From: Lachnospiraceae bacterium
Lineage (GTDB): Bacteria; Bacillota; Clostridia; Lachnospirales; Lachnospiraceae
Direction of reading: 5' to 3'
Assembly: GCA_017461045.1 (NCBI GenBank)
Contig: JAFTZJ010000010.1
Coordinates: 1 to 58,268 of the forward strand
Length of the DNA: 58,268 bases
The notes below the pieces were generated by a model, which worked only from the letters and a program-made list of their open reading frames with translations, was not told where the DNA came from and did no database searches. Each line of letters begins with the position of its first letter. Positions within the stretch are counted from its first letter, which is position 1. Below, in pieces: positions 976 to 19,496 of the stretch. The position numbers and the translations under genes are program-made.

Positions 976-1005
976 ATTATACTATATTAGAAAAATGGTT
1001 ATCAA
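976..1005 (-). promoter_or_regulatory. sigma-A-like promoter for the flagellin-like gene
   Basis: On the minus strand TTGATA (1005-1000) and TATAAT (981-976) are separated by 18 bases. The start codon is 33 bases beyond the -10 element. The site overlaps the pseG stop codon. It lacks the TAAA/CCGATA sigma-28 form seen before the other two flagellin genes. Confidence 0.5.
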
Positions 1006-2050
1006 TAGAAAACTTAGAATTACTGATTGATTCCATTAAAAATTCAGCAATTCGAATTGTACCTTTTCTATCGACTAATCCCTTCATCTTTTCTATGTAT
1101 GTGTTTCGCAATTCCGGTTGTTCTATCATTTTAACTAATGCATTCATAATTCTAGTACCACTCCATCCGTCATCTCTCGCATCCCCTACCGATAACATAA
1201 TTCCCTCTTTGCCCATACAATCTACAAACTCACGTTGATTATCAGCAAATGAAAAACAAATAGTAGGCGTCTGGCAAGCACACAATTCATACAAAGTCGT
1301 ACCTCCGGCAGAAATTGCACACTGACACAACCGCATATAATCTCCAACATTATTAATATTCTTATGCAGGATAATACTATCATCCATGTGTTCAAGGGAT
1401 TCCAATTCATCTGTAAATTGGTTCATTTTACCTACTAATACATGAAATGTATAGTCTTTCAATATCGGATATCGGTTCTTCATCTTCAAAATGATTTGTG
1501 TAATTCCCAAGGGGTCTGTCCCACCGGTTGTAACTAGTACTGCCTGAGAACGCTGCTTCTTATCTACATCCCAAAATTCTTTTCGTATTGGAATATAATC
1601 CGCTCCTGCGAGCACTGATGTATTCTTACCTTGATACAATTGCTCTGTTTCTGTATCATTCTTTAAATAACTATAATGTAAAATTGCTGCAATGCTATAA
1701 ACTGTTTCCGCAAAATCATCAATATACATAACATTACACACATCATTTAATTCTTCCAAATACTTTGCATCTGCCTGATATGTATCTACGATTAACCAAT
1801 GCAAATCATCTTTCCTCACTTGCTCCTGCATCTGATGTATTTCTGAGTGTAACTGTTCCCACGAAGTACCCAACACAGTATACGGAAATGCATTCTCTCG
1901 TAGTTTTTCTGTCATTTTATCTTCTGCCAGATAAAAGCGACACTCCATTCCCATTGCCTTGCATTCATTGGCAATTGTCATGCAACGCATTAAATGTCCA
2001 GTTGCCACATGCTCATTTGCGTCTACACGAAATCCAATCCTAACAGTCAT
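977..2050 (-). CDS. pseG: PseG-type UDP-sugar hydrolase, pseudaminic acid pathway
   Basis: A GT-B-fold nucleotide-sugar hydrolase of 357 residues. PseG removes UDP from UDP-2,4-diacetamido-2,4,6-trideoxy-altropyranose, the step before PseI. The N-terminus RIGFRVDANEHVATGHLMRCM matches the PseG glycine/histidine loop (GxGHxxRC); the C-terminal half has VTTGGTDPLG and the UDP-binding CAISAGGTTLYELCACQTPTICF. ATG at 2050 is chosen because AAAGGATTGCAA precedes it; a GTG five codons upstream is also possible. It sits after a KAS III gene and is separated from the other pse genes by about 8 kb of embedded genes, but is on the same strand with no terminator seen between. Confidence 0.88.
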   Translation of the reverse strand: MTVRIGFRVDANEHVATGHLMRCMTIANECKAMGMECRFYLAEDKMTEKLRENAFPYTVLGTSWEQLHSEIHQMQEQVRKDDLHWLIVDTYQADAKYLEELNDVCNVMYIDDFAETVYSIAAILHYSYLKNDTETEQLYQGKNTSVLAGADYIPIRKEFWDVDKKQRSQAVLVTTGGTDPLGITQIILKMKNRYPILKDYTFHVLVGKMNQFTDELESLEHMDDSIILHKNINNVGDYMRLCQCAISAGGTTLYELCACQTPTICFSFADNQREFVDCMGKEGIMLSVGDARDDGWSGTRIMNALVKMIEQPELRNTYIEKMKGLVDRKGTIRIAEFLMESISNSKFSIDNHFSNIV

Positions 2051-2086
2051 TTGCAATCCTTTCACATGCCTCCTGATGCTTCATCT

Positions 2087-3154
2087 TTATAAATCACTAT
2101 CAATAATTGTGCAGAAATCCATATCCCCGATTTCCATTAGTATTCCACCTAAAGCCAGTCCGGTTCCAAATCCGGTTAAGCAACACTGAAACCGTCGCTC
2201 TTTCATGTTCTCTGCCAAGTTATCTGCTATTACAAGGGGTATCGTAGAAGAATTTGAATTCCCGTAACGCTCTACCAGAGACATAAACATTTTTTCTTTT
2301 GGCACTTCGATTTTTTCTGCCAATTTCTCAAGCATAAATTGATTTGGCTGATGAAACAAAAAATAATCCATTTCATTTCTATCCTTCTTTGCATAGGCAA
2401 ATAACGCATCCAATAAAATCGGAACTTCCCGCTGTACAAAATTAAACACTGCTGTTCCATCCATATTCAACGCATAGGGTTCTCGCAGAATTCCATCGCC
2501 AACATCCACTTTTTCTTCAAACAGCTTCCCTTGTTCAAACCGAAATCCTCCGCATGGATAGATTAATGCATTATTCTCTTCTCCGCACATACGCATATCC
2601 AGAAAAATGTCACCGCAGTTCGGATCATTTTCCAAAATTGTAATGGTAGCCGCATCTCCACCGGACGGAGGATTCACAAACACTTCTTCCTCCTGTTCTT
2701 TCCGGCTCAGTACGTCACCGGTAATCAAAACCACCTTTTTATTCTGCATATGCTCCAATAACATAAAGGATTGCATAAGTCCCAATATGTATCCTGCACA
2801 TCCTTGCGGAATATCCATACAAATCACATCATGAGACAAACCACAATGCCCCTGAATCAGATTACTGACATGAGGAACAAAATAATCCGGCGATAATGTA
2901 ACCACAATTACTGCACCGATTTCTTCCTTCCGAATATACTGCTCATCCAATAACTTACGCATTCCATATAGACATAAATCCGTAGTACTTGTTCCCTTTT
3001 TTGCCCTACGTCGTTGTCCGTAACCCATAACCGTTTTCAAACGTTTTGCTCGTACGGTTGACATATTCTGCGTTTCTTCTTCAAAGGTGTATGAACATTC
3101 CGGAAGAATCCCAAGAATTCCTGTAATCTTTTTTCCAGAAAACATCGTCTGCAT
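2087..3154 (-). CDS. KAS III (FabH-like) ketoacyl-ACP synthase, copy 1
   Basis: A 355-residue thiolase-fold enzyme. The KAS III catalytic triad is visible: Cys119 (IPQGCAGYI), His268 (LFHQPNQ) and Asn299 (RYGNSNSSTIPL). Family members condense an acyl-CoA with a carrier-bound malonyl unit, or transfer acyl groups. The gene starts two bases after the stop of a carrier-protein gene and follows an adenylation enzyme, so its acyl acceptor or donor is probably that dedicated carrier protein rather than the fatty-acid ACP. No fatty-acid synthesis genes surround it. It is clearly diverged from the second KAS III at 9183-10265, so this is not a simple recent duplication. Substrate unknown. Confidence 0.88.
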   Translation of the reverse strand: MQTMFSGKKITGILGILPECSYTFEEETQNMSTVRAKRLKTVMGYGQRRRAKKGTSTTDLCLYGMRKLLDEQYIRKEEIGAVIVVTLSPDYFVPHVSNLIQGHCGLSHDVICMDIPQGCAGYILGLMQSFMLLEHMQNKKVVLITGDVLSRKEQEEEVFVNPPSGGDAATITILENDPNCGDIFLDMRMCGEENNALIYPCGGFRFEQGKLFEEKVDVGDGILREPYALNMDGTAVFNFVQREVPILLDALFAYAKKDRNEMDYFLFHQPNQFMLEKLAEKIEVPKEKMFMSLVERYGNSNSSTIPLVIADNLAENMKERRFQCCLTGFGTGLALGGILMEIGDMDFCTIIDSDL

Positions 3155-3156
3155 AC

Positions 3157-3387
3157 TTAAATCGCTCCTCCACTCTTCTTAATAAGTTGCACCATGGCAT
3201 CTATACTAATAAAATGCTCCGGCAAAATATCAAGTGCATCAATTTTAATTGCATATGCTCTTTCAAATGCATCCACAAGTGCTACCACATCAAAAGAATC
3301 CAACAAGCCATCTTCCATGAAGTTGGTTGACGAACGGAAATCACATTCCGGTCTTAATTCTGATAATATTTCCATTATTTCACTCAT
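3157..3387 (-). CDS. acyl/peptidyl carrier protein, copy 1
   Basis: This is a 76-residue acidic helical protein with the phosphopantetheine attachment motif GLLDSFDVV, Ser31 being the predicted prosthetic-group serine. DSF instead of the classical DSL is common in stand-alone carrier proteins of specialised pathways. It lies between the adenylation enzyme (1-base gap) and KAS III (2-base gap), so the three are almost certainly co-translated. Its likely role is to carry the unit activated by the upstream adenylation enzyme. Confidence 0.88.
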   Translation of the reverse strand: MSEIMEILSELRPECDFRSSTNFMEDGLLDSFDVVALVDAFERAYAIKIDALDILPEHFISIDAMVQLIKKSGGAI

Positions 3388-3388
3388 T

Positions 3389-4915
3389 TTAAGCGTCCTC
3401 CATAATGTGTTTCTTTAATTCTTTTCGATTAATTTTACCATTATCGTTTAATGGCAGCTGTTCCATCAAGTAATATCGAGTTGGTATCATATATTTCGGA
3501 AGAATATTCACTAACTTCTTTCGGATCTCCATTTCTGTCAAGTTCTCGCTTGCCTTACATACGGCAACAATTTCAGATACATTTTCATTATAAATACAAC
3601 ATGCATTTTGGACGCCTTCAATGCCCAATATCGCAGTTTCAATCTCGCCCAACTCGATTCGATATCCCATATGTTTAATCTGATAATCCTTTCGACCATC
3701 AAACATAATCTCACCATATTCATTATAGTGTGCCAAATCACCGGTTCGATATATCAATTCCTGATAATTATTATGTAACGGATTCTGTACGAATGCCTGC
3801 ATGGTTTTTTCCGGATTTCTATAATATCCTACTGAATTTCCGGTTCCTCGCACGCATAATTCTCCCATCGCATCTTTTGTTGTTATCAGATTGTCTTGAT
3901 CATCCAATAACATAATTTGCGTATTCTTACATGCTTTACCAATCGGCAACGGTTCATCATCCTCAAATTCCCGATTAACTACATAATAGGCACACACATC
4001 CGTAATTTCCGTAGGACCATACAAATTCGCATATACCTCAGCCCGAACGAATTTTCTCCAAATATTTAAATGTTTATTTGGCATTACTTCACCGCAGAAC
4101 AGAATCTTTTTTAAGCACGAACAATCTATCGTTTCTAACAAACCACTATTTGCAACACCGATTAATGCAGATGGTACCCAAAAAATAAAATTAATCTTCT
4201 GCTCTACAATATAGTTCAATAATTTTACAGGAAATGCATAATACATTTCTGGAATAATATGTAAATGTGCACCTGTACTCATACACAAATAAATATCCAA
4301 AATGGAATTGTCAAAATAGAACGGTGCCTGATTTCCAATAATAGTAGTCTCATCAATTTGAAACTCATGGATTGCCCAATCAATATAGTCCATAATGCTT
4401 CTCTGTGCTATGGACACCCCCTTTGGAACACCGGTAGAGCCACTTGTAAATAATACATACGCCAAATCTGTATCAATAATTGTATCTAAATACAAGCTAC
4501 TATCCAGATTACCACGAGTCATATCTACATCCTCGACAAAAATCATATTATCTGAAGGAATTCCACCATCCATCAACTTCTTTGCACATTCCCGATTCGT
4601 TATAATTACCTGCGGTTCCAATGCATTTATAATGGATTTTGCCTTTTCAAACGGAAACTTCACATCCGTCGGCGTATAGTAGTTACCACTATATAAAACA
4701 CCCACAAAGGCCACAAGCGACATTGCAGATTTCGGCAAATAAACAAATACAGGAATTGCTCGCTTATGATTCTTTCTCCGTATCTCTTCTGCCAAACACA
4801 ATCCCATATTCCGCCACTGAGCAAATGTAATATCTCCGGTTGCATCGGTCAATGCAATCTTGTTTGGGTATTTCTTAACTGTATCTTCTAAATAACACAA
4901 AACTGAATGGTTCAT
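3389..4915 (-). CDS. amino-acid adenylation (NRPS A-domain/DltA-like) ligase
   Basis: A 508-residue ANL-superfamily enzyme. It has the P-loop FTSGSTGVPKG (about 156-166), YGPTE, the YRTGDL hinge and a C-terminal subdomain ending NDNGKINRKEL with the catalytic Lys. At residues 200-206 it has YFDNSIL; the Asp of FDxS normally binds the substrate amino group in amino-acid-activating A domains and in DltA. An amino acid substrate is therefore more likely than a fatty acid. ATG at 4915 has GGAGGAAAAATC in front, preferred to the upstream in-frame start. It probably loads the adjacent carrier protein (3157-3387). It is unlikely to be DltA: no dltB, dltC or dltD neighbours. Confidence 0.85.
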   Translation of the reverse strand: MNHSVLCYLEDTVKKYPNKIALTDATGDITFAQWRNMGLCLAEEIRRKNHKRAIPVFVYLPKSAMSLVAFVGVLYSGNYYTPTDVKFPFEKAKSIINALEPQVIITNRECAKKLMDGGIPSDNMIFVEDVDMTRGNLDSSLYLDTIIDTDLAYVLFTSGSTGVPKGVSIAQRSIMDYIDWAIHEFQIDETTIIGNQAPFYFDNSILDIYLCMSTGAHLHIIPEMYYAFPVKLLNYIVEQKINFIFWVPSALIGVANSGLLETIDCSCLKKILFCGEVMPNKHLNIWRKFVRAEVYANLYGPTEITDVCAYYVVNREFEDDEPLPIGKACKNTQIMLLDDQDNLITTKDAMGELCVRGTGNSVGYYRNPEKTMQAFVQNPLHNNYQELIYRTGDLAHYNEYGEIMFDGRKDYQIKHMGYRIELGEIETAILGIEGVQNACCIYNENVSEIVAVCKASENLTEMEIRKKLVNILPKYMIPTRYYLMEQLPLNDNGKINRKELKKHIMEDA

Positions 4916-4965
4916 GATTTTTCCTCCATTACAATACATATGCACTCTACATTCGGTATCTTTAA

Positions 4966-5718
4966 CTAAAATATACCCGAATCCGTATGCATTGCTCTAC
5001 CTGTAATTGTACCGGATGCATCGCTTAATAAGAATAGTATCGCATCTGCAATCTCCTCCGGTTCCGGAACTCCTAATAATTGTCGGTCTGTGATTCTCTT
5101 TAATCCATCATCTCCCAACTCATCTAGAGCATTATAATAGATTGCGGTTCTTGTCATACCCGGCATGACAGTATTTACTCGGATTCCTTTACTACATAAT
5201 TCCTGGGCAACCGCCTGCACAGCTGCATTCATACCGGCTTTAGCTGCTGCATAAATGGTTTGACACTTTTCAGGCACCACTGCTGCCATAGATGAAACCG
5301 ATACAACATTACCACCTTGATTATGATACTTCTTTTTGGAAAACAGACGAAGCATATCTAATAAAACATAGATATTAATATGCATCATATCGTCAAACTG
5401 ACTCTTATTCAATGCGGTCATTGGTATAATCTTCGCAGTTCCGGCACTATGAACTATTCCATCTAGTTTTATTCCATCTGACACTGCTGTTTTAAAAATA
5501 TCTGTCATATCATCTACCTTATACAAATCAGCAAGTATTTGAATATGACCTTCTCCAGCCATCATTGAGTGGGTTTCCTGTAAACGCTCTTCATTTCGTC
5601 CCATGATAACTACTTTTGCACCTTGCTTTGAAAGGCGAATGGCGGTTGCCCGACCAATTCCTGAAGATGCTCCTGTTACCAAGTATTTCTTTCCTGTAAA
5701 ATCAAAATAATTCTTCAT
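4966..5718 (-). CDS. SDR-family oxidoreductase (FabG-like)
   Basis: A 250-residue classical short-chain dehydrogenase/reductase. It shows TGASSGIG for NAD(P) binding near residues 16-23, the HSAG motif, and the catalytic Ser plus YxxxK (SSMAAV...YAAAKAG). FabG-like SDRs reduce 3-ketoacyl-carrier-protein thioesters, which would be the logical step after the neighbouring KAS III; a sugar substrate cannot be excluded. The ATG directly follows the stop codon of the FrhB-like gene, so the two are translationally linked. Confidence 0.85.
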   Translation of the reverse strand: MKNYFDFTGKKYLVTGASSGIGRATAIRLSKQGAKVVIMGRNEERLQETHSMMAGEGHIQILADLYKVDDMTDIFKTAVSDGIKLDGIVHSAGTAKIIPMTALNKSQFDDMMHINIYVLLDMLRLFSKKKYHNQGGNVVSVSSMAAVVPEKCQTIYAAAKAGMNAAVQAVAQELCSKGIRVNTVMPGMTRTAIYYNALDELGDDGLKRITDRQLLGVPEPEEIADAILFLLSDASGTITGRAMHTDSGIF

Positions 5719-7383
5719 TTACTCACTCTCCTTATCCGTTCCAAATACTATTCCCGCCAATGCATTACTTAATGCGGCATAAACATCAGAATTATAATAC
5801 ATTGGTTCTACACCATAATCAAAATAGTCATAACAATACACATCTTTATCTTCAGAAACACAGATGCAATGAACCCCTGGCAACTGTTCCCGAAAAAATG
5901 AATAGCAGGATTCCAATTTTTTGTTTATGCTTCGAATTTTCTCCGTATCTGCAAAAGCTACCGTTTCCTGCTCTGTACCGTGCTTCTCTGTCAGGTACAA
6001 ACAATTCAGTATTATCTCTTCCGGCTGATAATACCGTCGTATCAGATGAATGAACGCCAAACAAGCTTCCTTCCATGTTTCCATTGACAGCTCCATAAAG
6101 GATATCAGCGGCACCTTAGGTATAAGCATCGTTTCATCAAAGGCTTCACTTTTAGTAATATATCTGTCATCGGAAAACATGTAGTTATCGTAACGTTCTT
6201 CTAAAAAATCTATGACTAACCAATTCTCCTTCTTGGGTGGTCGCACCATTCCCCAATCCTTCGTAACATCACGCAACACAGTTGATGTACGATACGGATT
6301 CTTGCAAGATATTTTCCCTATATCTATCTCATCTACCCTTTGAGAAGTCATACTCAAAATCGTAGAATTCATAATATGCCATGCCAATCTAACTCGTGAA
6401 TCTCTTAAATGTAATGTGTTTACGGTCAATCTGGAACTATAACCGCCAACAATTGCAATATTACAGAAAATGTCTTGCTGTTCCAGTTCTGTATAAATTT
6501 TAGCAAACCCGTGTTGTTGCTTTTTTAACTCAAAGAAAGAATTTCTAATTCTTCTATCCAAATTTGCACTTTCCAATGCAGGATTTCCACGAAGCACTTT
6601 CTGGTATTCTGACTCTAAACATACAAACTGCTCTTGGCAATTTGAAAATAATAACTGTCCTTTTTCATTTCTTATAATAACTGCTGATACGCCATTCGTA
6701 TTTGCAAATTTACTATGTTCCTTTCGAATCCCCCAATAATCTCCAATTGTTATATCTGCTTCTGAATGATTGCCCTTAAAATGACATTCATAACACGAAT
6801 TTCTTAAAAAATATTTCTTGTCAAATCCATAAAAGAAATTATCTTCAATTGACTTTATTACTTTATCTGCACCATCACTTTTATAACTGATATGCATATT
6901 TTCCCAGCCGAATCGACCATCACGAAATTGATATTCCTCTATCGCTCCATTTGGGGTAAGTTCATTCACATATTCCGTAAACATACTTTGACTTGGCACC
7001 CCATGACAAATAACTTCAATACAAAACAAATTCTCATGATATGCCATATCACCTAAAAAGCTTCTTAAGCCGGCAATTTGGCAAGGAGTACCGGAAAACA
7101 ATACTGGGGTATTATACTTTAAATAATTCTTTACTTCAATGTATGAATTACCAATTCTACTTTGCACGTATTTAGAGCCTCTTAGTCTATTTAATTCTTC
7201 CACTGTACGCGCAACTTGATGTTGTACCTTAAATGCATTATTCAGAGCTGCACCAAATACAACACCTCCCATTTGGATGATATATTGAGCCATACCATAA
7301 AACACACCACCGGATGAACTTTTCATTAATTGTTGCTCGTCTTTCAAATAGGCTGCATACACTCTATATTCATTGGTTGGCAT
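5719..7383 (-). CDS. FrhB-like iron-sulfur flavoprotein lacking its ferredoxin domain, fused to a DUF6270-like domain
   Basis: The first roughly 310 residues match the FrhB/coenzyme F420 hydrogenase beta-like family found in polysaccharide clusters: YAAYLKDEQQLMKSSSGG, a CQIAGLRSFL loop and conserved cysteines (CHGVPS, CYECHFKGNHSEADITIGDYWG). Such proteins normally begin with a two-cluster ferredoxin domain; here the protein starts directly at the FrhB part, and a separate 58-residue ferredoxin is encoded upstream at 9010-9186. The C-terminal part resembles DUF6270 (SGNH-like) proteins: NIAIVGGYSSRLTV, SRVRLAWHIMNSTI, and WLVIDFLEERYDN. ATG at 7383 has AAGGAGCC upstream and overlaps the preceding gene by 14 bases. 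A role in F420 chemistry is unlikely; a redox or sugar-modifying role is inferred from context only. Confidence 0.75.
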   Translation of the reverse strand: MPTNEYRVYAAYLKDEQQLMKSSSGGVFYGMAQYIIQMGGVVFGAALNNAFKVQHQVARTVEELNRLRGSKYVQSRIGNSYIEVKNYLKYNTPVLFSGTPCQIAGLRSFLGDMAYHENLFCIEVICHGVPSQSMFTEYVNELTPNGAIEEYQFRDGRFGWENMHISYKSDGADKVIKSIEDNFFYGFDKKYFLRNSCYECHFKGNHSEADITIGDYWGIRKEHSKFANTNGVSAVIIRNEKGQLLFSNCQEQFVCLESEYQKVLRGNPALESANLDRRIRNSFFELKKQQHGFAKIYTELEQQDIFCNIAIVGGYSSRLTVNTLHLRDSRVRLAWHIMNSTILSMTSQRVDEIDIGKISCKNPYRTSTVLRDVTKDWGMVRPPKKENWLVIDFLEERYDNYMFSDDRYITKSEAFDETMLIPKVPLISFMELSMETWKEACLAFIHLIRRYYQPEEIILNCLYLTEKHGTEQETVAFADTEKIRSINKKLESCYSFFREQLPGVHCICVSEDKDVYCYDYFDYGVEPMYYNSDVYAALSNALAGIVFGTDKESE

Positions 7384-8494
7384 CTTTTGGCTCCTTATAT
7401 GCATCGCATTTGTCAATAGCATCTTTTAAGAATTGAATCGATTCTTGTCGTTCCTTATACAGATTTGTTTCAACTTCTGTCCAATTAATATCCTCTACCT
7501 TATCAATATCGGAATTCAACAATATATATCTCTGAGTCAAACCTAATTTTGGCAAAAGACTTGCAAACCTTCTATCCTCTCCCATGGTATAGATTCGCTT
7601 CAAACTAAAAATATAAAACTCTCTTCGGAATACAAGTGAAAAGCACATACCATGAAATGAATCTGTGCAAACCACTTTGGCATACTTAATTAAAGATAAG
7701 AATTCTTCCGGTCCTACCGTTTTCTTTGACACATTTCCATTGTAATCCGAATAAACCTCATTACATGGTTTATCAATAAAATTTGTATCAATACATACCA
7801 CATGGTTTACGTTATACTTTTTCTTAATCTTTTCAATTGAAACTTGATGACATTCTATTCTTGATAAAATATAACAGACGATATAATCACCGGATATCAT
7901 TCGCTTTCCGGCTCGCTTTTCCCAAAAAGATTCCGAAACTGTTAACGTTGGATCTAATACTGTAGCAATTGGCTTATTATATTTACTCAATATCTGGCTT
8001 ACATACTTTTCTCTTCCGCTAATTGCTACAAATTTATCTATCACTCTCGACATGTCATAAGTAATTTCGCCTTTGTCCAAACCGGATGCATAAGCAATGT
8101 GTGGTAATCCATCCAATTCCTCATAATCCCAAAAGAATAACTGTCGGGTGTTATAAGCATCTCCCCAAATACAATCGCTACCGCAAAGCAAAATATCACT
8201 ATTTTCTTTTGCATAAGCTACTACATCATCATCAAAATAACATTGAGGTGATACATTTATATACTTCTTAATCCATTTCTTAAATCGAAAATACGTCTTT
8301 GCATACCCGGAACCTCTACTCATCAAGGTCATCATCCGTTCTTTTGCCGTCTTGCCCAAATACATAAATTTCATTGTTGTCGGAATGCAATTCTGATTCT
8401 TCAACAATTCCTGCATAGCTGTTGCCTGTAATGTAGCACCATAATTTAATGTTGTATCTCCCATCCATGTAATAATGGTTACTCTTTTCTTCAT
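7370..8494 (-). CDS. polysaccharide pyruvyl transferase family protein
   Basis: A 374-residue protein with GT-B-like features of the PS_pyruv_trans family: an N-terminal TWMGDTTLNYGATLQATAMQELL segment, SDILLCGSDCIWGD in the middle, and C-terminal VCTDSFHGMCFSLVFRREFYIF, the usual FHG signature. CsaB-like enzymes add pyruvate ketals to sugars. In many clusters this family sits beside FrhB-like proteins, as here, and the pair may act together. Its 3' end overlaps the start of the FrhB-like gene and supplies its ribosome binding site. Confidence 0.82.
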   Translation of the reverse strand: MKKRVTIITWMGDTTLNYGATLQATAMQELLKNQNCIPTTMKFMYLGKTAKERMMTLMSRGSGYAKTYFRFKKWIKKYINVSPQCYFDDDVVAYAKENSDILLCGSDCIWGDAYNTRQLFFWDYEELDGLPHIAYASGLDKGEITYDMSRVIDKFVAISGREKYVSQILSKYNKPIATVLDPTLTVSESFWEKRAGKRMISGDYIVCYILSRIECHQVSIEKIKKKYNVNHVVCIDTNFIDKPCNEVYSDYNGNVSKKTVGPEEFLSLIKYAKVVCTDSFHGMCFSLVFRREFYIFSLKRIYTMGEDRRFASLLPKLGLTQRYILLNSDIDKVEDINWTEVETNLYKERQESIQFLKDAIDKCDAYKEPKDANQ

Positions 8495-8496
8495 AG

Positions 8497-8997
8497 TTAT
8501 CCCCGCTTCTCCTTTGTCGCATTGATTACCAAATCCCGATATGAAATAATTTCTTTCTTTACGCCCAATTCGCGAAGTTCCTTTTCTATTTCCTTGGCAT
8601 GGTTATACGATGTAACTACAATACAATCATAAAAATCCTGTTTGGCAACTTCTGTAATACTATACACTCTCCGGTTATTTCCATTAAGTGTTTTGGCACT
8701 TCTGTCTGCCAGATAAATTTCATCAAACAAATTCTCTGATATGTCCTTTAAAAATTCTTCATGATATACACCCAGACCATAAACAACAATACGTTTATAA
8801 TTGTTTCTCAAAAAATAACCATCCAGTGCTATTTTATGGTTACGATTCTCACTCATACACGAATCGAATAGTTGTTTTTGATATCGCTCAAATCTGCCTT
8901 GATACATTACTTTTTCAGATATTTTCATAGCAAACAATGCACCTATCAAAAAGCCTACAAATATCCCTATTATGCCAATCACAATGTAAGCAATCAT
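8497..8997 (-). CDS. membrane-anchored protein with Rossmann-like domain, function unknown
   Basis: A 166-residue protein. Residues 2-24 form a strongly hydrophobic glycine-rich membrane segment. A soluble domain follows with RIVVYGLGVYHEEFLKDI, DEIYLADRSA and DCIVVTSYNHAKEIEKEL, the beta-alpha-beta pattern of small nucleotide- or sugar-binding domains often found fused to glycosyltransferases. ATG at 8997 follows AAAGGGAAATAT, and the stop is two bases before the pyruvyl-transferase-like gene. It lies between the two halves of the split ferredoxin/FrhB pair. I cannot assign a reaction. Confidence 0.7.
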   Translation of the reverse strand: MIAYIVIGIIGIFVGFLIGALFAMKISEKVMYQGRFERYQKQLFDSCMSENRNHKIALDGYFLRNNYKRIVVYGLGVYHEEFLKDISENLFDEIYLADRSAKTLNGNNRRVYSITEVAKQDFYDCIVVTSYNHAKEIEKELRELGVKKEIISYRDLVINATKEKRG

Positions 8998-9009
8998 ATA
9001 TTTCCCTTT

Positions 9010-9186
9010 CTACACAGCGTATACCGGACACACAGCCAAACATTTCCCACACTGAATACATTTGTCCACAACCTTCGGATACAGGAAGCCTTCCTCATCT
9101 TCCTGCATCTCAATACATTGCACCGGACATATTTGCCTGCATGCCTCACAACCACAACAACTGTTTTTCTCTACATTCTCTATCAT
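9010..9186 (-). CDS. stand-alone 2[4Fe-4S] ferredoxin, detached N-terminal domain of the FrhB-like protein
   Basis: This 58-residue protein has two CxxCxxCxxxCP cluster motifs (CCGCEACRQICP and CIQCGKCLAVCP) joined by EDEEGFLYPKV, the arrangement found at the N-terminus of full-length FrhB-like proteins of polysaccharide loci. It stops right after CPVYAV, the point where an intact protein would run on into the YAAY segment that begins the FrhB-like gene at 7383. Its ATG overlaps the KAS III stop codon (ATGA), with GGAG upstream, so it is translationally coupled. It probably still supplies electrons to the separated FrhB-like protein. Confidence 0.8.
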   Translation of the reverse strand: MIENVEKNSCCGCEACRQICPVQCIEMQEDEEGFLYPKVVDKCIQCGKCLAVCPVYAV

Positions 9187-10265
9187 TCTTTTGGCTCCAT
9201 AGCACCCATGCACTTAATTGCCTCAAATCCTTCTTCCCAATACTCATCCGTAGATATAATTGGCAATACATCACATGTATTCAAATCAAAGGCTACAACT
9301 GCCCAAGACAAACCAACACCAAATCCTGAACAAATCAACTTCAAAGTACGTTCCTCGTTCAATTCCTGACATAAATCTGCAATGCCCAATGGTATAGTTG
9401 CACCATCTGTATTGCCATACTTGTCCAACGATACGTGAAGCTTTTCATCTGCAATCTTTACTCGCTTTGCAATCTGCTTTAATATCATCAGATTTGGCTG
9501 ATGCAACATACAGTAATCAAAATCATCCATGGAGCATTCATACTTCTTGAAGAACTCTTTGAACAACTTCGGCACCTGCGTTATAGTAAACAAGAATGTA
9601 TCATCATTAATCATGTATGTGTCCGGTGTTCCTTTTGGATGTACCATATCCGGGAATCTAGCTCCGGGTATCGGTGCCATAATTACATTATATCCCGTTC
9701 CATCCGACATATTGGCACCATACATTCTGCCTTCGCCCTTTTCCAGCAACGTTGCTGTACCTGCCGCACCAAACATCAAACTATCCGTCAAGTCATCATT
9801 CTGCGGCGGATACAACATGGCATCACCAATGAGTAATAATGCCCGATTTACCAATCCGCCTTGAATCAATCCACCCAGAAAAGTCAATCCAACAGTAAAT
9901 CCGGAACATCCAACATTCACATCGAAGGTTAAACATTCCTTTTGGATTCCCAACCGCTTGTGCAGAGTAAAAGCAGTGGATGGTACTTTATAATCCGGAT
10001 CCTGTGTTATGAAAATTAACGCATCAATATCTTCTCCGGTTAATCCTTTATGTTCCATTAAGCGTTTTGCTGCCACACAACATAAATCAGATGCTGTCTG
10101 TTTTCCGTTTGAAAGATATCGTTGCTTGATTCCGGTTGTTTCTATGAACTTTTCAATATCCTTTTCTTCAAATACTCCTATGTAATCCCGGGTTTCTTTT
10201 CTGACTTCCGGCAATACGCATGAAATACCTGAAATAACTACCTGATTATAATCAAATCCCTTCAT
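9183..10265 (-). CDS. KAS III (FabH-like) ketoacyl-ACP synthase, copy 2
   Basis: A 360-residue KAS III-fold enzyme with catalytic Cys120 (VNVGCSGFTVG), His255 (MLHQPNLM) and Asn285 (KYGNTDGATIPLG). It is preceded by its own carrier-protein gene (6-base gap) and followed by the ferredoxin with a 4-base overlap. FITQDPDYKVPSTAF is typical of FabH-like proteins. With the other KAS III and two carrier proteins, it points to two condensation or acyl-transfer steps. Alternatively it could be an acyltransferase acting on a sugar amine. Substrate unknown. Confidence 0.88.
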   Translation of the reverse strand: MKGFDYNQVVISGISCVLPEVRKETRDYIGVFEEKDIEKFIETTGIKQRYLSNGKQTASDLCCVAAKRLMEHKGLTGEDIDALIFITQDPDYKVPSTAFTLHKRLGIQKECLTFDVNVGCSGFTVGLTFLGGLIQGGLVNRALLLIGDAMLYPPQNDDLTDSLMFGAAGTATLLEKGEGRMYGANMSDGTGYNVIMAPIPGARFPDMVHPKGTPDTYMINDDTFLFTITQVPKLFKEFFKKYECSMDDFDYCMLHQPNLMILKQIAKRVKIADEKLHVSLDKYGNTDGATIPLGIADLCQELNEERTLKLICSGFGVGLSWAVVAFDLNTCDVLPIISTDEYWEEGFEAIKCMGAMEPKE

Positions 10266-10271
10266 TCAATA

Positions 10272-10490
10272 TCACTCCATCATATCCATTAAGTCTTTTA
10301 CAGTTTCAAGTGCACGAATCTCAGCGCCTTTAACTGCCTTTCCAAACTCCTCATCCATTAATGCAATGAAAGACAGAATCGCTACCGAATCCCATTCTTC
10401 ATATTCACTTAATACGGTATCCTCATTGATTTCCTCCACCTCTAAGTCTAGTATTTCTGCAATGTGCTCCAATTTTTCTTGATTTGTCAT
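10272..10490 (-). CDS. acyl carrier protein, copy 2
   Basis: A 72-residue acidic protein with the phosphopantetheine motif EEWDSVAIL, Ser35 being the predicted attachment site. WDS-type carrier proteins are frequent in sugar-modification and specialised pathways. ATG at 10490 is chosen because AAAGGATGATTATT lies at proper spacing; the ATG three codons upstream touches the ribosome binding site. Its pairing with the following KAS III (6 bases away) suggests a dedicated partnership. Confidence 0.88.
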   Translation of the reverse strand: MTNQEKLEHIAEILDLEVEEINEDTVLSEYEEWDSVAILSFIALMDEEFGKAVKGAEIRALETVKDLMDMME

Positions 10491-10533
10491 AATAATCATC
10501 CTTTCTTAATATTATTTTCGTAATAATGTTCTT

Positions 10534-11118
10534 TTATTTGATTACTTCGTAATCATCATAGGCAAATTTTAATACTAATTTGCCTAATTTCTGCTTTTCA
10601 AAATCGTTCCAGTCCTGCTTCGTGCCTCTTACAATATTCACCCGATATTGCTGCCCATTTATCTCTACGGTTGTGTCTTTGTATTCTTCCTGTTCTCCGA
10701 AAAATCGACTAACCGAACCTGCATTCTTATTATATTCTATAATTTCTGCATACAAATTCTCATATCCAAGAACATTGTACATAATATCCAAACCAAAATA
10801 TGTCATTATCACACCATATCCAAGAGCTTGGAATTCTTCATCAATTAGATAATTACCGATTTCTACATGGTTTTCTTCCGGATCATAGGTGTAATTCTCT
10901 ACTCCAAAGGGTTTGTCATCCAAATAAAAAACAAACACATGACGATTCACGTCTTTCCTTATGTTCTCTACCCATCGCATATGATTTTCTTCAGAAATCT
11001 CATCTTGTGTAAACATATTCCGTCGTACAAAATCCTGATTTCTCCATTTACGAATCTCGCGAATTGTTGCCTCATCAAGACAATTCAATTCTACCGCTTT
11101 AAATCGTTTCTTAACCAC
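10534..11118 (-). CDS. pseH: PseH-like GNAT N-acyltransferase
   Basis: A 194-residue GNAT protein similar to PseH, which N-acetylates the 4-amino group of the UDP-sugar intermediate of pseudaminic acid. Visible features are IREIRKWRNQDFVRRNMF near the N-terminus, the acyl-CoA-binding strand region with FQALGYGVIMTYFGL, and YENLYAEIIEYNKNAGSVSRFFGF-like C-terminal core. The start is probably GTG at 11118, with GAGGGTG upstream, overlapping the preceding gene by 8 bases; a GTG five codons upstream is less likely. Lying next to a carrier protein and KAS III, it could use an acyl-carrier donor instead of acetyl-CoA (inference). Confidence 0.8.
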   Translation of the reverse strand: MVKKRFKAVELNCLDEATIREIRKWRNQDFVRRNMFTQDEISEENHMRWVENIRKDVNRHVFVFYLDDKPFGVENYTYDPEENHVEIGNYLIDEEFQALGYGVIMTYFGLDIMYNVLGYENLYAEIIEYNKNAGSVSRFFGEQEEYKDTTVEINGQQYRVNIVRGTKQDWNDFEKQKLGKLVLKFAYDDYEVIK

Positions 11119-11818
11119 GCCGGTCACCCTCACTCACTCGAAATTCTTCTTTCGTTCCGCTTTCTCCATGCCCCGGAAAAATTACCGCTGTCTCACATAT
11201 AGATTCCAAAAACGGAAGAGTCTTATTATAATAATCCTTTTTACTACCACCCGGTAATCGAAGAATGATATCCTCATTTAAAATCAATGTATCTCCTGTG
11301 AACACATAATCCTTGCCAATTACAATACAGGCACTTCCCTTTGAATGTCCCGGTGTATATACATAAGTAAAATTGATTCCTTCCCACTGAAGCACTTCCC
11401 GGTCTGCAAGTATTCTATCTCCTACACAAGAATAATCCTCCGGCATGTTATATACTTCTCGCCAGTTTTCCGGATAATCCCGAAACAATAACAAGGATTC
11501 CAGATAAGCTGCTAAATTCTTCTTGGGATTCTGAATTGCTTCCAAAGCAATTGCGTTCCCCATTACAGTGCAGTCAAAGTGTTCACGATAATAATTAATT
11601 CCTTGTATGTGGTCGTAATGTTCATGGGTAATAAATATCCAGATTTTCTTCACTCCACAATCCTGCATTTGTTGAAGTGCTTCTTCCGATTCCACACAAT
11701 CAATCATAACAGCAGATTCCTGCTCTATCATCAGATACATATTGGAATGAATCAAATCATATGAGTATCGATAAACCTTTTTTCCGTATATGTTTAAGTC
11801 ATCTTTTAGAATTAACAT
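11111..11818 (-). CDS. metallo-beta-lactamase-fold hydrolase, possible thioesterase
   Basis: A 235-residue MBL-fold protein with the metal ligands HEHYDH (65-70), TPGHSKGS, FTGDTL and FPGHGES in order, as in glyoxalase II-type hydrolases. These enzymes hydrolyse thioesters such as S-lactoylglutathione, and some MBL proteins serve as thioesterases in polyketide pathways. Position between pseI and the pseH-like gene, within the carrier-protein island, makes a thioesterase or editing function plausible but unproven. Start ATG 11818 follows AGGTAACAG. Confidence 0.78.
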   Translation of the reverse strand: MLILKDDLNIYGKKVYRYSYDLIHSNMYLMIEQESAVMIDCVESEEALQQMQDCGVKKIWIFITHEHYDHIQGINYYREHFDCTVMGNAIALEAIQNPKKNLAAYLESLLLFRDYPENWREVYNMPEDYSCVGDRILADREVLQWEGINFTYVYTPGHSKGSACIVIGKDYVFTGDTLILNEDIILRLPGGSKKDYYNKTLPFLESICETAVIFPGHGESGTKEEFRVSEGDRRG

Positions 11819-11862: not shown

Positions 11863-12912
11863 CTATTCTATCATATCCCAAGTCAAAGGCATTCCTTTTT
11901 TTAAATCATGCCTTGCTTTTTTCCCCAGAATTTGTTCGTAATACTTCGTATGCAACCCGCCATTTGGACGTATAGAACGAACATTATTTTCTGTTAATGT
12001 TTCTCCAACTTTAACATCCTCTGTTATATAGAGAGAGCGCATGGTTTCTCTGGCTTCCTCCTGATTATCCGTCAATCGGAAGGTTGCGGTTCCCAAAGCT
12101 TTTTCCAGATTCCGAATCTGTTGAATCATTGAGGCAAACTCTTCTATCTCCATAGAAAAGGCTCCATCCGGACCACCATCTTCCCGTTTTAACGTAACGT
12201 GCTTTTCTACTACTTTTGCTCCCAGAGCAATCGCTCCCAATGCTACTTCACTACCTAATGTATGGTCTGACAAGCCGGTAATACAATCAAAGGTATTCCC
12301 CATTAATGGAATCGTTCGAAGGTTCATATCTTCATACGGAGAAGGATATGCAGACGTGCATTTCAGCAATATTACATTCGAATTCTGTTCTTCCTCGCAA
12401 GTACGCAATGCGAGTTCAATATCCGACATATGTGCTGCACCGGTTGAAATAATAATCGGTTTCCCTGTTTTAGCAATTTTACGAATCATTGGAATATCAT
12501 TAATTTCAAAGGATGCCACCTTATAAGCCGGCATTCCGATCTGCTCCATGAAATCAACCGCAGTCAAGTCAAACGGTGAGGAAAAACAATCGATACCCAA
12601 TTCCTTTGCATAATCAAAAAGTCCCTGCTGCCACTCCCAAGGTGTATATGCCTTCTGATACAATGAATACAACGTTTCACCATCCCACAATCCACCTTCT
12701 AATCGAAAAGGCTCTGTATCACAATCAATGGTAATGGTATCTGCGGTATATGTCTGTAATTTAATTGCATCTGCACCGGCTTCTTTTACCAAACGAATGA
12801 TTTCTTTGGCCCTGTCATAATCCATCAAATGATTGGCTGACATCTCTGCAATTATATATGCCGGAGCATCTTCATGAATATGACGATTTCCGATAAGTAT
12901 ATTCTTCTTCAT
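11863..12912 (-). CDS. pseI: pseudaminic acid synthase PseI
   Basis: A 349-residue NeuB-family enzyme condensing 6-deoxy-AltdiNAc with phosphoenolpyruvate to pseudaminic acid. It has the family N-terminus AYIIAEMSANHLMDYDRAKEII, KLQTYTADTITID, CFSSPFDLTAVDF, KVASFEINDIPMI, ISTGAAHMSD, LLKCTSAYPSP, GLSDHTLGSEV and KHVTL, then an antifreeze/SAF domain from about residue 290 (SLYITEDVKVGETLTENNVRSIRP). The TWEW-like YTPWEWQQ and CFSSPFD forms fit PseI better than sialic or legionaminic acid synthases. It lies 11 bases after pseF. Confidence 0.92.
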   Translation of the reverse strand: MKKNILIGNRHIHEDAPAYIIAEMSANHLMDYDRAKEIIRLVKEAGADAIKLQTYTADTITIDCDTEPFRLEGGLWDGETLYSLYQKAYTPWEWQQGLFDYAKELGIDCFSSPFDLTAVDFMEQIGMPAYKVASFEINDIPMIRKIAKTGKPIIISTGAAHMSDIELALRTCEEEQNSNVILLKCTSAYPSPYEDMNLRTIPLMGNTFDCITGLSDHTLGSEVALGAIALGAKVVEKHVTLKREDGGPDGAFSMEIEEFASMIQQIRNLEKALGTATFRLTDNQEEARETMRSLYITEDVKVGETLTENNVRSIRPNGGLHTKYYEQILGKKARHDLKKGMPLTWDMIE

Positions 12913-12923
12913 ATGTGTTCCTA

Positions 12924-13598
12924 CTATTTCTCCTGCATCATTCTATACTTCATTTCCGCCAGTTTCCAGTCATCTTCATTATCGATATCCTGTACTTCCA
13001 GTTCCGAACATATCAGTGGTACAGTCTTCAAGTCTTCATCATCCTCCGGACGCATCACATAAAATTGACCGCAATCATGATACACCGGCTCCAAATCCTG
13101 CGAACGCACTCCTGCATTTTCCGGATATTGATATTCCAACTCACCATCCCGTACCACCATTGCTCTTTGTGGGGGAAAGGAATATCGAACAACCGGTGTT
13201 ACCGCGCCTACATCCTCAGTCATTAATGCAACTGCTCGTTGTAACTTCTCTGCCGTTACAAACGGTGCAGTTGGATATATGCATACTGCAATTTCAAACT
13301 CTCTTCCCTGCTTTTTATATTCTTCAAAAACTTCATCCAATACATCTGCAGTTGTTGCGAAATCGTCTGAAGTCTTAGCAGTTCGCATAAAAGGTATCTT
13401 CGCTCCGTACTTTTTAGCAATCTCAGCAATCTCTTCACTATCGGTGGATACCATAACTTCATCAAACATCCCGGATTCTATAGCTGCTTCAATGGAATAT
13501 GCAATAATCGGTTTCCCGCAGAAGTCTTTAATATTCTTTTTCGGAATCCGTTTACTACCACCTCGTGCAGTAATAATTGCAATATTTCCTTGCTTCAT
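12924..13598 (-). CDS. pseF: CMP-pseudaminic acid cytidylyltransferase PseF
   Basis: A 224-residue nucleotidyltransferase that activates the nonulosonic acid with CTP. It begins IAIITARGGSKRIPKKNIKDFCGKPIIAYSI, the signature of the NeuA/PseF group, followed by VMVSTDSEEIAEIAKKYGAKIPFMR and CIYPTAPFV. ATG at 13598 is chosen: AGGTGGAG lies just upstream and the product then starts at the signature; the longer upstream frame overlaps pseB. The enzyme supplies the donor for the two Maf transferases. Confidence 0.92.
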   Translation of the reverse strand: MKQGNIAIITARGGSKRIPKKNIKDFCGKPIIAYSIEAAIESGMFDEVMVSTDSEEIAEIAKKYGAKIPFMRTAKTSDDFATTADVLDEVFEEYKKQGREFEIAVCIYPTAPFVTAEKLQRAVALMTEDVGAVTPVVRYSFPPQRAMVVRDGELEYQYPENAGVRSQDLEPVYHDCGQFYVMRPEDDEDLKTVPLICSELEVQDIDNEDDWKLAEMKYRMMQEK

Positions 13599-13630
13599 TC
13601 TCCACCTCTCACTTTCTGTCATTCTCTGGA

Positions 13631-14626
13631 TTATAGGTTGTTCAGTGCTTTCTTCAACATATCCACATCCATCCACTCCTTATTGTTATCGGATGTATAA
13701 CTAAATCCTTCCGGAACTTTGGTTCCACCCGGCAGGATATCCTGTTCTAATTTCGCCCAATCATAATGTGGATATATAATAAAATGCTTATCATACTCAT
13801 AAGTTGTCCATGAATCATCCTTAGTTACCATGATTTCATGCAACTTCTCGCCTTCGCGAATTCCAAATTCATCAATCTTACAGCCCGGTAACATAGCCTC
13901 TGCCAAATCACCAATATGGAAAGAAGGAATCTTAGATATATAAGTCTCTCCACCCTTGGATTCTTCCAATGCTTTGAATACCAATTCTACTCCCTGCTCC
14001 AAGGTAATCCAGAACCGAGTCATACGCATATCCGTAACACCAAGTGTAGTGCCACCATTTTCAATAATCTTTTTCCAAATTGGAATAACAGAACCACGAC
14101 TTCCTGCTACATTCCCATAGCGTACCACCGAGAAAATTGTCTGGTAATTATCTCCACGATATGCATTGGCTGCCACAAACAGCTTATCTGAAACAAGCTT
14201 AGTGCCACCATACAAATTAATTGGATTTACCGCCTTATCTGTTGAAAGTGCTACCACTTTCTTAACGCTGCAATCCAAGGCTGCATCAATTACATTCTGC
14301 GCACCATGAATATTCGTTTTAATTGCCTCAAATGGATTGTATTCGCATGTCGGAACCTGCTTCATAGCCGCTGCATGAATCACATAATCCACACCGGCAA
14401 AAGCACGGTACAAACGTTCCTTGTCTCTTACATCACCAATGAAGAATCGAACTTTATTCATATCTACTTTGTCTGCATATTCAGACTTCATAACACTTTG
14501 CTTATATTCATCCCGAGAATATATAATTACTTTTTGCGGATTATAGTTTGCAAAAACCATTTCCAGAAACTTCTTACCAAAAGAACCGGTTCCACCTGTG
14601 ATTAAAATTGTTTTATTGTTCAACAT
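13631..14626 (-). CDS. pseB: UDP-N-acetylglucosamine 4,6-dehydratase (inverting) PseB
   Basis: This 331-residue SDR-fold enzyme makes the first step of pseudaminic acid synthesis. It shows ILITGGTGSFGKKF at the N-terminus, HAAAMKQVPTCEYNP, the STDKAVNPINLYGGTK segment carrying the modified active site, and RYGNVAGSRGSVIP, all PseB hallmarks. Start ATG 14626 follows GGAGGGTACATA. The next pathway gene, pseC (aminotransferase), would be expected here but pseF follows directly. Confidence 0.95.
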   Translation of the reverse strand: MLNNKTILITGGTGSFGKKFLEMVFANYNPQKVIIYSRDEYKQSVMKSEYADKVDMNKVRFFIGDVRDKERLYRAFAGVDYVIHAAAMKQVPTCEYNPFEAIKTNIHGAQNVIDAALDCSVKKVVALSTDKAVNPINLYGGTKLVSDKLFVAANAYRGDNYQTIFSVVRYGNVAGSRGSVIPIWKKIIENGGTTLGVTDMRMTRFWITLEQGVELVFKALEESKGGETYISKIPSFHIGDLAEAMLPGCKIDEFGIREGEKLHEIMVTKDDSWTTYEYDKHFIIYPHYDWAKLEQDILPGGTKVPEGFSYTSDNNKEWMDVDMLKKALNNL

Positions 14627-18204: not shown

Positions 18205-18223
18205 TATCCAACTCCAATTCCCC

Positions 18224-18490
18224 TTAGTTATCTTCAATAAACGGTTGCAATTCAAACACTAAAACATCTGCCAAAAGCACATATTCTTTTGTCTCCATCG
18301 CTTCCATTACATTTTTAACCAGCAACAAGCATGTACCCTGTACTTCTAATGGTAGTTGCATCAAGTATGTATTTAACTCCTGTACAAAGTTCGGCAATTT
18401 TGCTATTCCGCTTTCTAACCGATTCTGATAAAATGCATCTGCTATTTCTTGCAATTGAATCAATAATTTTTCATTTTGTTCCTTTGTCAT
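18224..18490 (-). CDS. small helical protein resembling a Maf N-terminal domain
   Basis: The 88-residue product ends VKNVMEAMETKEYVLLADVLVFELQPFIED. That pattern closely follows the Maf copy 1 segment near residues 80-110 (LTEIENAQVSGDTILMGDLYELQMLPILCD). The adjacent Maf copy 2 lacks such a domain. I infer a stand-alone accessory domain for a Maf, perhaps helping flagellin recognition. ATG at 18490 follows GAGGGTGTAT. It lies directly after the flagellin terminator and begins the island. Confidence 0.7.
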   Translation of the reverse strand: MTKEQNEKLLIQLQEIADAFYQNRLESGIAKLPNFVQELNTYLMQLPLEVQGTCLLLVKNVMEAMETKEYVLLADVLVFELQPFIEDN

Positions 18491-18525
18491 ATACACCCTC
18501 ATACATTATTCCGGATACAAATAAA

Positions 18526-19361: not shown

Positions 19362-19383
19362 AATAATTCCTCCTTGAATATAA

Positions 19384-19457
19384 TGTAGCGTCCTTGCTAC
19401 ATGTACTAGAAGCCTTTGGCTTCCGTTGATTGATAGCTGAGTTGATACTTTATCAAC
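19384..19457 (-). promoter_or_regulatory. flagellin leader with three hairpins and a CsrA-type site
   Basis: Three small perfect hairpins follow one another in the minus-strand leader: GTTGATA/TATCAAC (19457-19441, 3-base loop), GAAGCC/GGCTTC (19423-19409, 3-base loop) and TGTAGC/GCTACA (19401-19384) with loop AAGGAC. The third presents GGA in the loop as in the known CsrA consensus, and the ribosome binding site CAAGGAGG downstream gives a second GGA. This is the two-site layout by which CsrA represses hag in Bacillus subtilis; csrA and fliW lie about 4 kb away. Confidence 0.7.
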
Positions 19458-19469
19458 CCTTGTATTATA

Positions 19470-19496
19470 TATATCGGACACTTTCTCCGATACTTA
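19470..19496 (-). promoter_or_regulatory. sigma-28 promoter of the flagellin gene
   Basis: On the minus strand TAAG (19496-19493), 15 bases, then CCGATATA (19477-19470), close to the TAAA-N15-GCCGATAA flagellar consensus. The predicted transcript would start near 19463, just before the first leader hairpin. Confidence 0.75.

Follow-up and report, generated by a model that had tools for sequence, protein, structure and literature searches.

A putative carrier-protein acyl-building cassette in a flagellin pseudaminic acid island of a Lachnospiraceae bacterium, and its proposed role in N-acylation

Why should a flagellin glycosylation island contain carrier-protein genes of the kind used by non-ribosomal peptide synthetases (NRPS) and polyketide synthases (PKS)? 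The question is raised by a 58,268-nucleotide stretch of DNA from a Lachnospiraceae bacterium (contig JAFTZJ010000010.1, assembly GCA_017461045.1; the whole stretch is called the window here), in which the genes for pseudaminic acid (Pse) synthesis are interrupted by such a run at 2087-10499 on the minus strand. On balance, we think that this cassette is probably an NRPS/PKS-like line of the dissociated (type II) kind, building an acyl group for the N-acylation step in Pse synthesis. The case is built from gene order, family membership, conserved residues and trees.

All the genes that a first-pass annotation had assigned to the module were present in this run, in one direction and between pseI, pseF and pseB on one side and pseG on the other (Table 1). 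They encode an amino-acid-type adenylation enzyme (AMPlig), two acyl carrier proteins (ACPa and ACPb), two ketoacyl-ACP synthase III (KAS III) enzymes with intact Cys-His-Asn (KAS3a and KAS3b) and a FabG-like short-chain dehydrogenase/reductase (SDR). The two Maf genes, and a nearby metallo-β-lactamase-fold (MBL) hydrolase and GNAT, were also where that annotation had placed them, and PseB, PseF, PseG and PseI all score above their NCBIfam cut-offs. After pseB, pseF, pseI, MBL and GNAT, the order is ACPa, KAS3a, ferredoxin piece, hyp166, pyruvyltransferase, FrhB-DUF6270, SDR, AMPlig, ACPb, KAS3b and then pseG; the ferredoxin, hyp166, PS_pyruv_trans and FrhB-DUF6270 genes had gone unmentioned. 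Intergenic gaps from pseB to pseG do not exceed 50 bases, several genes overlap and, as had been claimed, AMPlig is separated from ACPb by 1 base and ACPb from KAS3b by 2. The pseB-to-pseG run is therefore likely to be a single operon.

Among the named genome contigs scanned, 105 KAS3b relatives were confirmed, and the best 80 of these were analysed as loci, in fetched stretches of up to 21 kb, several on short contigs. In an alignment of these 80 with the window (81 rows), the KAS3b triad of Cys119, His268 and Asn299 was intact in every row. The Cys-His-Asn of KAS3a was intact in 9/9 rows, window included, and the phosphopantetheine Ser was kept in 73/73 rows of ACPb and 90/90 of ACPa. The window KAS III enzymes scored 115 and 161 bits against FabH proper (TIGR00747), below its cut-off of 292. 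KAS3b likewise fell short of PRK12880, the family of the KAS III enzymes of Campylobacterales pse islands (165.7 versus 436 bits; the enzyme of Campylobacterales locus L278 scored 559.8). AMPlig had DltA models among its best matches (318.3 and 307.8 bits), both under cut-off (307.8 versus 559.85), and was a near miss below the cut-off of the NRPS adenylation domain TIGR01733 (301.5 versus 317.4 bits). The pocket Asp (GrsA 235; motifs placed by eye) was kept in 81/81 aligned AMPlig rows, a set that includes three dlt-type rows and one duplicate. Prediction of the substrate from the pocket residues had been suggested as a check. By motif mapping the window enzyme reads D-N-L-F-L-C-L-D-V, a code that fits no trusted assignment, and the amino acid is not readable from it. 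The commonest other codes were D-I-F-F-W-A-L-L-D (24 rows) and D-N-L-F-L-A-L-V-D (15 rows); the serine-like Asp with which other codes end is a hint.

The proposed user of the acyl group is encoded beside ACPa. The window GNAT is PseH-like, and a 4-row profile of module GNATs had PseH (4xpk) as its best PDB match (2.8e-07). KAS, ACP, ketoreductase and N-acyltransferase genes, the set that characterizes type II acyl modules of the vio and wfp kind discussed below, stand together in one glycan locus. In a tree of 33 GNAT rows of 140-240 residues, the five GNATs of module islands formed one clade (97/96) and eight GNATs of loci with FkbH genes formed another (97/92). Quick trees of PseI (84 rows) and PseF (58 rows) each placed the window and loci L050, L060 and L066 in one clade (99 and 98, respectively). 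PseB of the window grouped (99) with L060, L066 and the module-less genome G003 of the same genus, whose PseI falls elsewhere. KAS3b, AMPlig and KAS3a of six pse-type loci (the window, same-genus genome G004, L050, L060, L066 and Campylobacterales locus L283; L043 was left out as a copy) were scattered among other loci, the starred branches forcing at least three, four and three label changes, respectively. The clustering of PseI, PseF and GNAT, together with the scatter of the acyl builders, suggests that these Pse enzymes travel together while the acyl builders vary. We read this as one GNAT-PseI-PseF lineage coupled with varied acyl builders, a view tempered by the PseG tree, genome G420 and gene linkage.

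The proposed route runs as follows. AMPlig would load an α-amino acid onto ACPb, as its family and the kept pocket Asp suggest. The KAS III enzymes, with their intact triads, would start chains with malonyl-ACPa, KAS3b from the ACPb-bound acyl group and KAS3a from an acyl-CoA, and the SDR would reduce the keto group to give an (amino)hydroxyacyl-ACPa. Because the GNAT adjoins ACPa and belongs to the module clade, it is the predicted transferase: it would place the acyl group, instead of acetyl, on the 4-amine of UDP-4-amino-4,6-dideoxy-AltNAc, the nitrogen that ends up as N-7 in Pse. PseG, PseI and PseF would then complete CMP-Pse, and Maf would transfer the sugar to flagellin, as in the established pathway. 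The MBL hydrolase may remove incorrect acyl groups from the carriers as an editing thioesterase; its family would suggest this, as would its recurrence in the window, G004, L050, L060, L066 and L283. The acyl group had been proposed to be added either before or after transfer to flagellin; gene order and trees favour acylation before Maf transfer, at the PseH step.

Several observations weigh against this scheme. The window GNAT and three of its module relatives (65.7-78.4 bits) score below the PseH cut-off, the second GNAT of L060 (156 aa) places elsewhere in the tree, and support for the module clade dropped to 87/91, unstarred, once Campylobacterales rows were included and three long rows removed. 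For PseG, which acts after acylation, the module rows were rejected as one clade (approximately unbiased (AU) test, p 0.0013). Contig C19 of genome G420 (L291/L292) carries a further clear pse island, in which the genes for KAS3b, ACPb and the adenylation enzyme are doubled and adjacent; KAS3a, ACPa and SDRs are also present, followed by pseB, pseF, pseI and pseG. With G420 included, a single clade for PseI of the module islands was rejected (AU p 0.00017), and G420 PseF also stood apart. No PseH-type GNAT or MBL match was found in the G420 island, which indicates that the PseI/PseF clade tracks this GNAT and not the module as such. Linkage of pseF, pseI and the GNAT gene could explain part of the tree signal, and only a handful of such islands are known. 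A KAS3a match was missing from 49/80 KAS3b loci, and the synthase of L283 is ambiguous, scoring higher as NeuB than as PseI. Finally, the source is an incomplete metagenome-assembled genome: no pseC was found in the window and none above cut-off in the 67.5%-complete assembly, where a DegT protein encoded at the edge of a contig comes closest (293 bits versus a cut-off of 423.5).

How far the adenylation enzyme belongs to the pathway can be judged from the KAS3b loci. By local annotation, the 80 loci include an adenylation enzyme in 74 cases, ACPb in 74, ACPa in 63, SDR in 66, KAS3a in 31, MBL in 30 and a p260/p260b-like protein in 60 (of the two, p260b contains a GNAT domain and p260 matches no Pfam family). 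In 62/80 related loci, AMPlig and ACPb are both encoded at most 3 kb from KAS3b and in the same orientation; the cluster is not due to chance. These counts bear on the explanation that competes best, in which KAS3a, KAS3b, ACPa and SDR make a plain 3-hydroxybutyryl or 3,5-dihydroxyhexanoyl group from acetyl and malonyl units and AMPlig/ACPb only load a side acid. It overlaps with the proposed route, assigning the cassette the same role with another acyl group, and we consider it a serious possibility, somewhat short of an even chance. It is in keeping with the Flavobacterium psychrophilum wfpC-wfpG set, which is predicted to give 3,5-dihydroxyhexanoyl on Qui2NAc4N (PMC6519341, available part), and with the Pseudomonas syringae vioS/vioR/acp/vioB set, which has no adenylation enzyme as listed in the available part of PMC3927599. 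However, the near-constant presence of the adenylation enzyme in KAS3b loci, with its pocket Asp in every aligned row, makes this enzyme look integral to KAS3b. Within the acyl-line interpretation itself, a hydroxyacyl group without nitrogen takes about half of the weight.

An amino acid might instead be passed on unchanged, AMPlig loading ACPb, KAS3b shuttling the aminoacyl group to ACPa without condensation and the GNAT forming an aminoacyl amide. Locus L099, in which adenylation enzyme, ACPb, KAS3b and ACPa occur with no SDR match, would suit such a route. A KAS III-like shuttle has been proposed for CloN2/CouN2 in aminocoumarin synthesis, for which we found no paper in the open-licence PubMed Central (PMC) literature. 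An intact KAS3b triad in all 81 rows nevertheless fits condensation, and SDR is matched in 66/80 loci; we consider transfer of an unchanged amino acid unlikely. The aminocoumarin pyrrole line CloN4/CloN5/CloN2/CloN1/CloN7 is a parallel to the cassette as a whole, in that an adenylation enzyme, a carrier, a KAS III-like enzyme and a second carrier feed sugar acylation. That line differs in carrying out O-acylation of an antibiotic sugar.

The acyl group might also be meant for a second flagellar-glycan sugar, such as the substrate of the pyruvyltransferase, or for an unrelated product, the pse neighbourhood being incidental. The extra glycan genes of the island are compatible with this, as is the distribution of the module. 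Clear pse genes lay beside KAS3b in 4/80 fetched stretches: L043 (a contig of G004), L050, and L060 and L066, which additionally carry flagellin and Maf genes. The other 76 relatives had no clear pse cluster within the stretch, and a pse-specific module was rejected on this count. Relatives of KAS3b (E ≤ 1e-40) occurred in 7/397 genomes of the family, window included. Those on the named contigs came from Lachnospiraceae, other Clostridia, Selenomonadaceae, Paenibacillus, Flavobacteria, other Bacteroidota, a Helicobacter, Planctomycetia, Fibrobacter and others. Many of the loci also have genes resembling those for aminotransferases, acyltransferases or formyltransferases. The first-pass annotation had said that finding the module mostly away from pse genes would tell against it. 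That is the distribution observed, and it disposes of exclusivity; it does not refute a role in this island.

A wider neighbourhood search covered 77 genomes of the KAS3b loci, L083's genome being left out. In 10 of them (G419, G420, G421, G422, G424, G425, G426, G427, G428 and G585), KAS3b had a NeuB-family synthase no more than 15 kb away on its own contig; none of the 10 belongs to the 28 genomes of more distant loci. The PseI cut-off was passed in G420, G425, G426 and G427 and failed in G419, G421, G422, G424 and G428; G585 was unscored. A pseB relative (70%) and a NeuB-like gene lie near the module in G421, G422 and G585, and the single pseF/pseB matches of L044, L045, L051 and L077 sit near NeuB-type genes; in L101's genome no NeuB match was found at E ≤ 1e-20. 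The proximity of a NeuB-family synthase in 10/77 genomes indicates that the link of the module to nonulosonic acids is broader than Pse. In L298 (G428, contig C16), the NeuB-like gene adjoins the module and is flanked by open reading frames (ORFs) that by eye resemble thiamine pyrophosphate-dependent enzymes, an arrangement that recalls the Shewanella sfmA/sfmB pair in the available part of PMC3765264. The recurrence of NeuB-family synthases, and the GNAT, PseI and PseF trees, argue against an incidental neighbourhood. Thus the claim of a carrier-protein pathway within a nonulosonic acid island gains from the GNAT-ACPa adjacency, the GNAT/PseI/PseF cluster and the NeuB associations, and loses its pse-specificity.

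The genus to which the window belongs, compared over 8 genomes, provides a further argument. One contig of G004 carries MBL-GNAT-ACPa-KAS3a-SDR-AMPlig (first part) and a second carries AMPlig (rest)-ACPb-KAS3b-pseG; the ferredoxin/hyp166/pyruvyltransferase/FrhB block is absent between KAS3a and SDR (L016). G004 thus lacks the pyruvyltransferase yet retains GNAT, ACPa and KAS3a together on the first contig, as well as ACPb and KAS3b beside pseG on the second, and we regard an incidental pse neighbourhood as rather improbable. The same absence rules out FrhB, pyruvyltransferase, hyp166 and ferredoxin as core module parts; hyp166 and FrhB relatives also lie beside KAS3b in L046 and L049. GNAT-ACPa-KAS3a-SDR are consecutive in G004, L050 and L066, the window has the same order with its four-gene block before SDR, and L060 has GNAT-ACPa-SDR-KAS3a-SDR. 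A D-alanine (Dlt) system for teichoic acid, suggested by the DltA/DltC-like character of AMPlig and ACPb, was rejected as very improbable on scores and neighbours, since AMPlig lies below the DltA cut-offs and neither an MBOAT protein (DltB) nor DltD was seen by eye among the ORFs of window positions 1-26000, whereas DltB/DltD do occur beside several 35-46% relatives in the family (labels by eye).

Other species of the genus fill the same place differently. G003 has Maf, pseB, pseI, an ATP-grasp protein, pyruvyltransferase, FrhB, pseG and pseF, with neither a module nor a GNAT match. Ferredoxin and FrhB, separate genes in the window (5719-9201), appear by eye to form one fused ORF in G003 (L174:5276-6373). 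G001 and G005 have NeuB- and NeuA-like genes and, by eye, a NeuC-looking ORF after Maf; in G006 a contig ends in a partial KAS3b. These different cassettes show that the slot behind flagellin and Maf varies among species of one genus (L254, L255, L174, L015/L016), holding NeuB-type genes, pse genes with ATP-grasp or pse genes with the carrier module.

PseI scored above cut-off in 84/397 genomes of the family, at 85 places. Eighty were examined; G284, G289 and G298 were left out, and the remaining two, the window and G210, are both module-bearing. A KAS III or MBL match was found in 0/80 and an adenylation-enzyme match in 4/80 of these other PseI loci, counts that are lower bounds on presence because the contigs were in some cases short; all six pse-type loci named above, in contrast, have an MBL, which speaks for the proposed scheme. 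FkbH genes (the one tested matched TIGR01686) were present in 10/80 (L153, L158, L163, L164, L165, L176, L180, L183, L208 and L221), 8 of them with an ACP match. These FkbH/ACP loci may represent a second carrier-protein route, putting glyceryl-type acyls on Pse. ATP-grasp proteins, encoded in 23/80 (L153-L232), may offer another way of forming the amide.

Type II acyl modules are already known from flagellar and O-antigen sugar pathways, as the available parts of the reports cited here show, and the window cassette varies on that kind. In P. syringae, vioS, vioR, acp and vioB act on flagellar viosamine, and mass spectrometry showed that flagellin of a vioR mutant loses modified viosamine (PMC3927599). 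The likeness lies in KAS III, ketoreductase, ACP and N-acyltransferase genes for a flagellin amino sugar; the sugar, however, is viosamine and not Pse, there is one KAS III, and an adenylation enzyme and second carrier are not listed there. In F. psychrophilum, two ketoacyl synthases (wfpC/wfpE), an ACP (wfpD), a reductase (wfpF) and an acyltransferase (wfpG) are assigned to N-acylation of an amino sugar, but this is O-antigen Qui2NAc4N, the pathway is predicted only and no adenylation enzyme is mentioned in the available part (PMC6519341). Closer to Pse, orf1-3 of the Aeromonas polar flagellin island group II, which accompany pse genes, encode an ACP, a 3-oxoacyl-ACP reductase and an AMP-dependent synthetase. 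A 376-Da Pse derivative is borne by the flagellin of A. piscicola AH-3; this group differs in having LuxC/LuxE genes, and the available part of that report mentions no KAS III and leaves the role unassigned (PMC7874193). Enterobacterial islands with ACP, FabG and CaiC genes were reported in 71-72 strains (PMC4875605), and Pse derivatized with di-O-methylglyceric acid is found on the flagellin of C. jejuni (PMC3068675), both taken from the available parts of those papers.

We also searched 149 Campylobacterales genomes and viewed the neighbourhoods of the ten best matches. L283 (G539) combines AMPlig, ACPs, KAS3a, KAS3b, SDR, MBL and a PseH-like GNAT with pseF, pseC and pseB, and in G574 (L290/L280) genes for an adenylation enzyme, ACPs, KAS III and SDR are flanked by pseB/pseC and pseF/pseG. 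These islands differ in being distant in sequence (KAS3b 27-39%) and in adding AAC3-like transferases; G541 (L278) has an FkbH variant and no adenylation match. The claim that such a module was new thus stands for a Firmicutes pse island, for which no description was found in the open-licence PMC literature, and gives way more widely, carrier genes accompanying pse in Aeromonas group II (PMC7874193, available part) and in Campylobacterales islands.

Table 1. Genes of the flagellin and Pse island in the window, with the family matches on which their names are based.
Feature	Position	Strand	Support
pseG	977..2065	-	TIGR03590 188.5 bits
KAS3b, KAS III-like condensing enzyme	2087..3154	-	PF08541 2e-17; best NCBIfam PRK12880 165.7 bits (cut-off 436, below)
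ACPb, carrier paired with adenylation enzyme	3157..3387	-	PF00550 21.2 bits (cut-off 20.8)
AMPlig, stand-alone amino-acid adenylation enzyme, DltA-like	3389..4915	-	PF00501 4.3e-56
FabG-like SDR, YxxxK present	4966..5718	-	PF13561 6e-50
FrhB/FdhB-type protein fused to DUF6270	5719..7422	-	PF04432, PF04422, PF19786
Polysaccharide pyruvyl transferase	7370..8494	-	PF04230 1.5e-21
hyp166	8497..8997	-	no Pfam family
Ferredoxin-like 4Fe-4S piece	9010..9201	-	Fer4 families
KAS3a, second KAS III	9183..10265	-	PF08541, PF08545
ACPa, acyl carrier protein	10272..10499	-	PF00550 1.9e-07
PseH-type GNAT, proposed acyl-ACPa user	10534..11133	-	TIGR03585 74.1 bits (cut-off 93.1, below)
MBL-fold hydrolase, proposed editing thioesterase	11111..11818	-	PF00753 1.2e-17; GloB model 56.9 bits, below cut-off
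pseI	11863..12912	-	TIGR03586 480.9 bits
pseF	12924..13676	-	TIGR03584 270.7 bits
pseB	13631..14626	-	TIGR03589 518.8 bits
Maf1 glycosyltransferase	14661..16331	-	PF01973, PF20157
Maf2 glycosyltransferase	16354..18255	-	PF01973
Flagellin, likely acceptor	18570..19481	-	flagellin models

Three further features of the window were noted. Next to pseG, at the contig end (194-943), lies a flagellin paralog without about the first 20 residues of its N-terminal domain; the in-frame upstream stretch has stops. Between flagellin and Maf2 (18224-18502) is the gene for a 92-aa protein with 29-42% relatives in the same slot in L066, L254 and L255; it could be a GlfM, the Maf-2 partner described in the available part of PMC13317340. 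At the opposite end an ORF that by eye resembles an RHS-repeat protein (56747-58267) runs off the contig.

In its most specific form, the proposal would be that a statine-like γ-amino-β-hydroxyacyl group, primed by an amino acid and extended once by malonyl-ACP, would be installed at N-7 of flagellin Pse by a PseH variant. The group would vary by species through cassette swaps, like a flagellar serotype, and related lines in several phyla would modify other nonulosonic acids and other glycans. We consider this extended version unlikely as a whole, and hold it with much less confidence than the role in N-acylation. The cassette (adenylation enzyme, two carriers, KAS III and usually SDR) is widespread in glycan-type loci of several phyla, with no assigned role found in the open-licence PMC literature. 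PseH-type GNATs can be grouped by the donor-making genes that adjoin them, KAS/ACP or FkbH/ACP, and this may help to predict non-acetyl Pse derivatives from sequence. For the bacteria that carry it, the cassette would offer a testable route by which flagellar nonulosonic acid chemistry is varied with natural-product-type enzymes.

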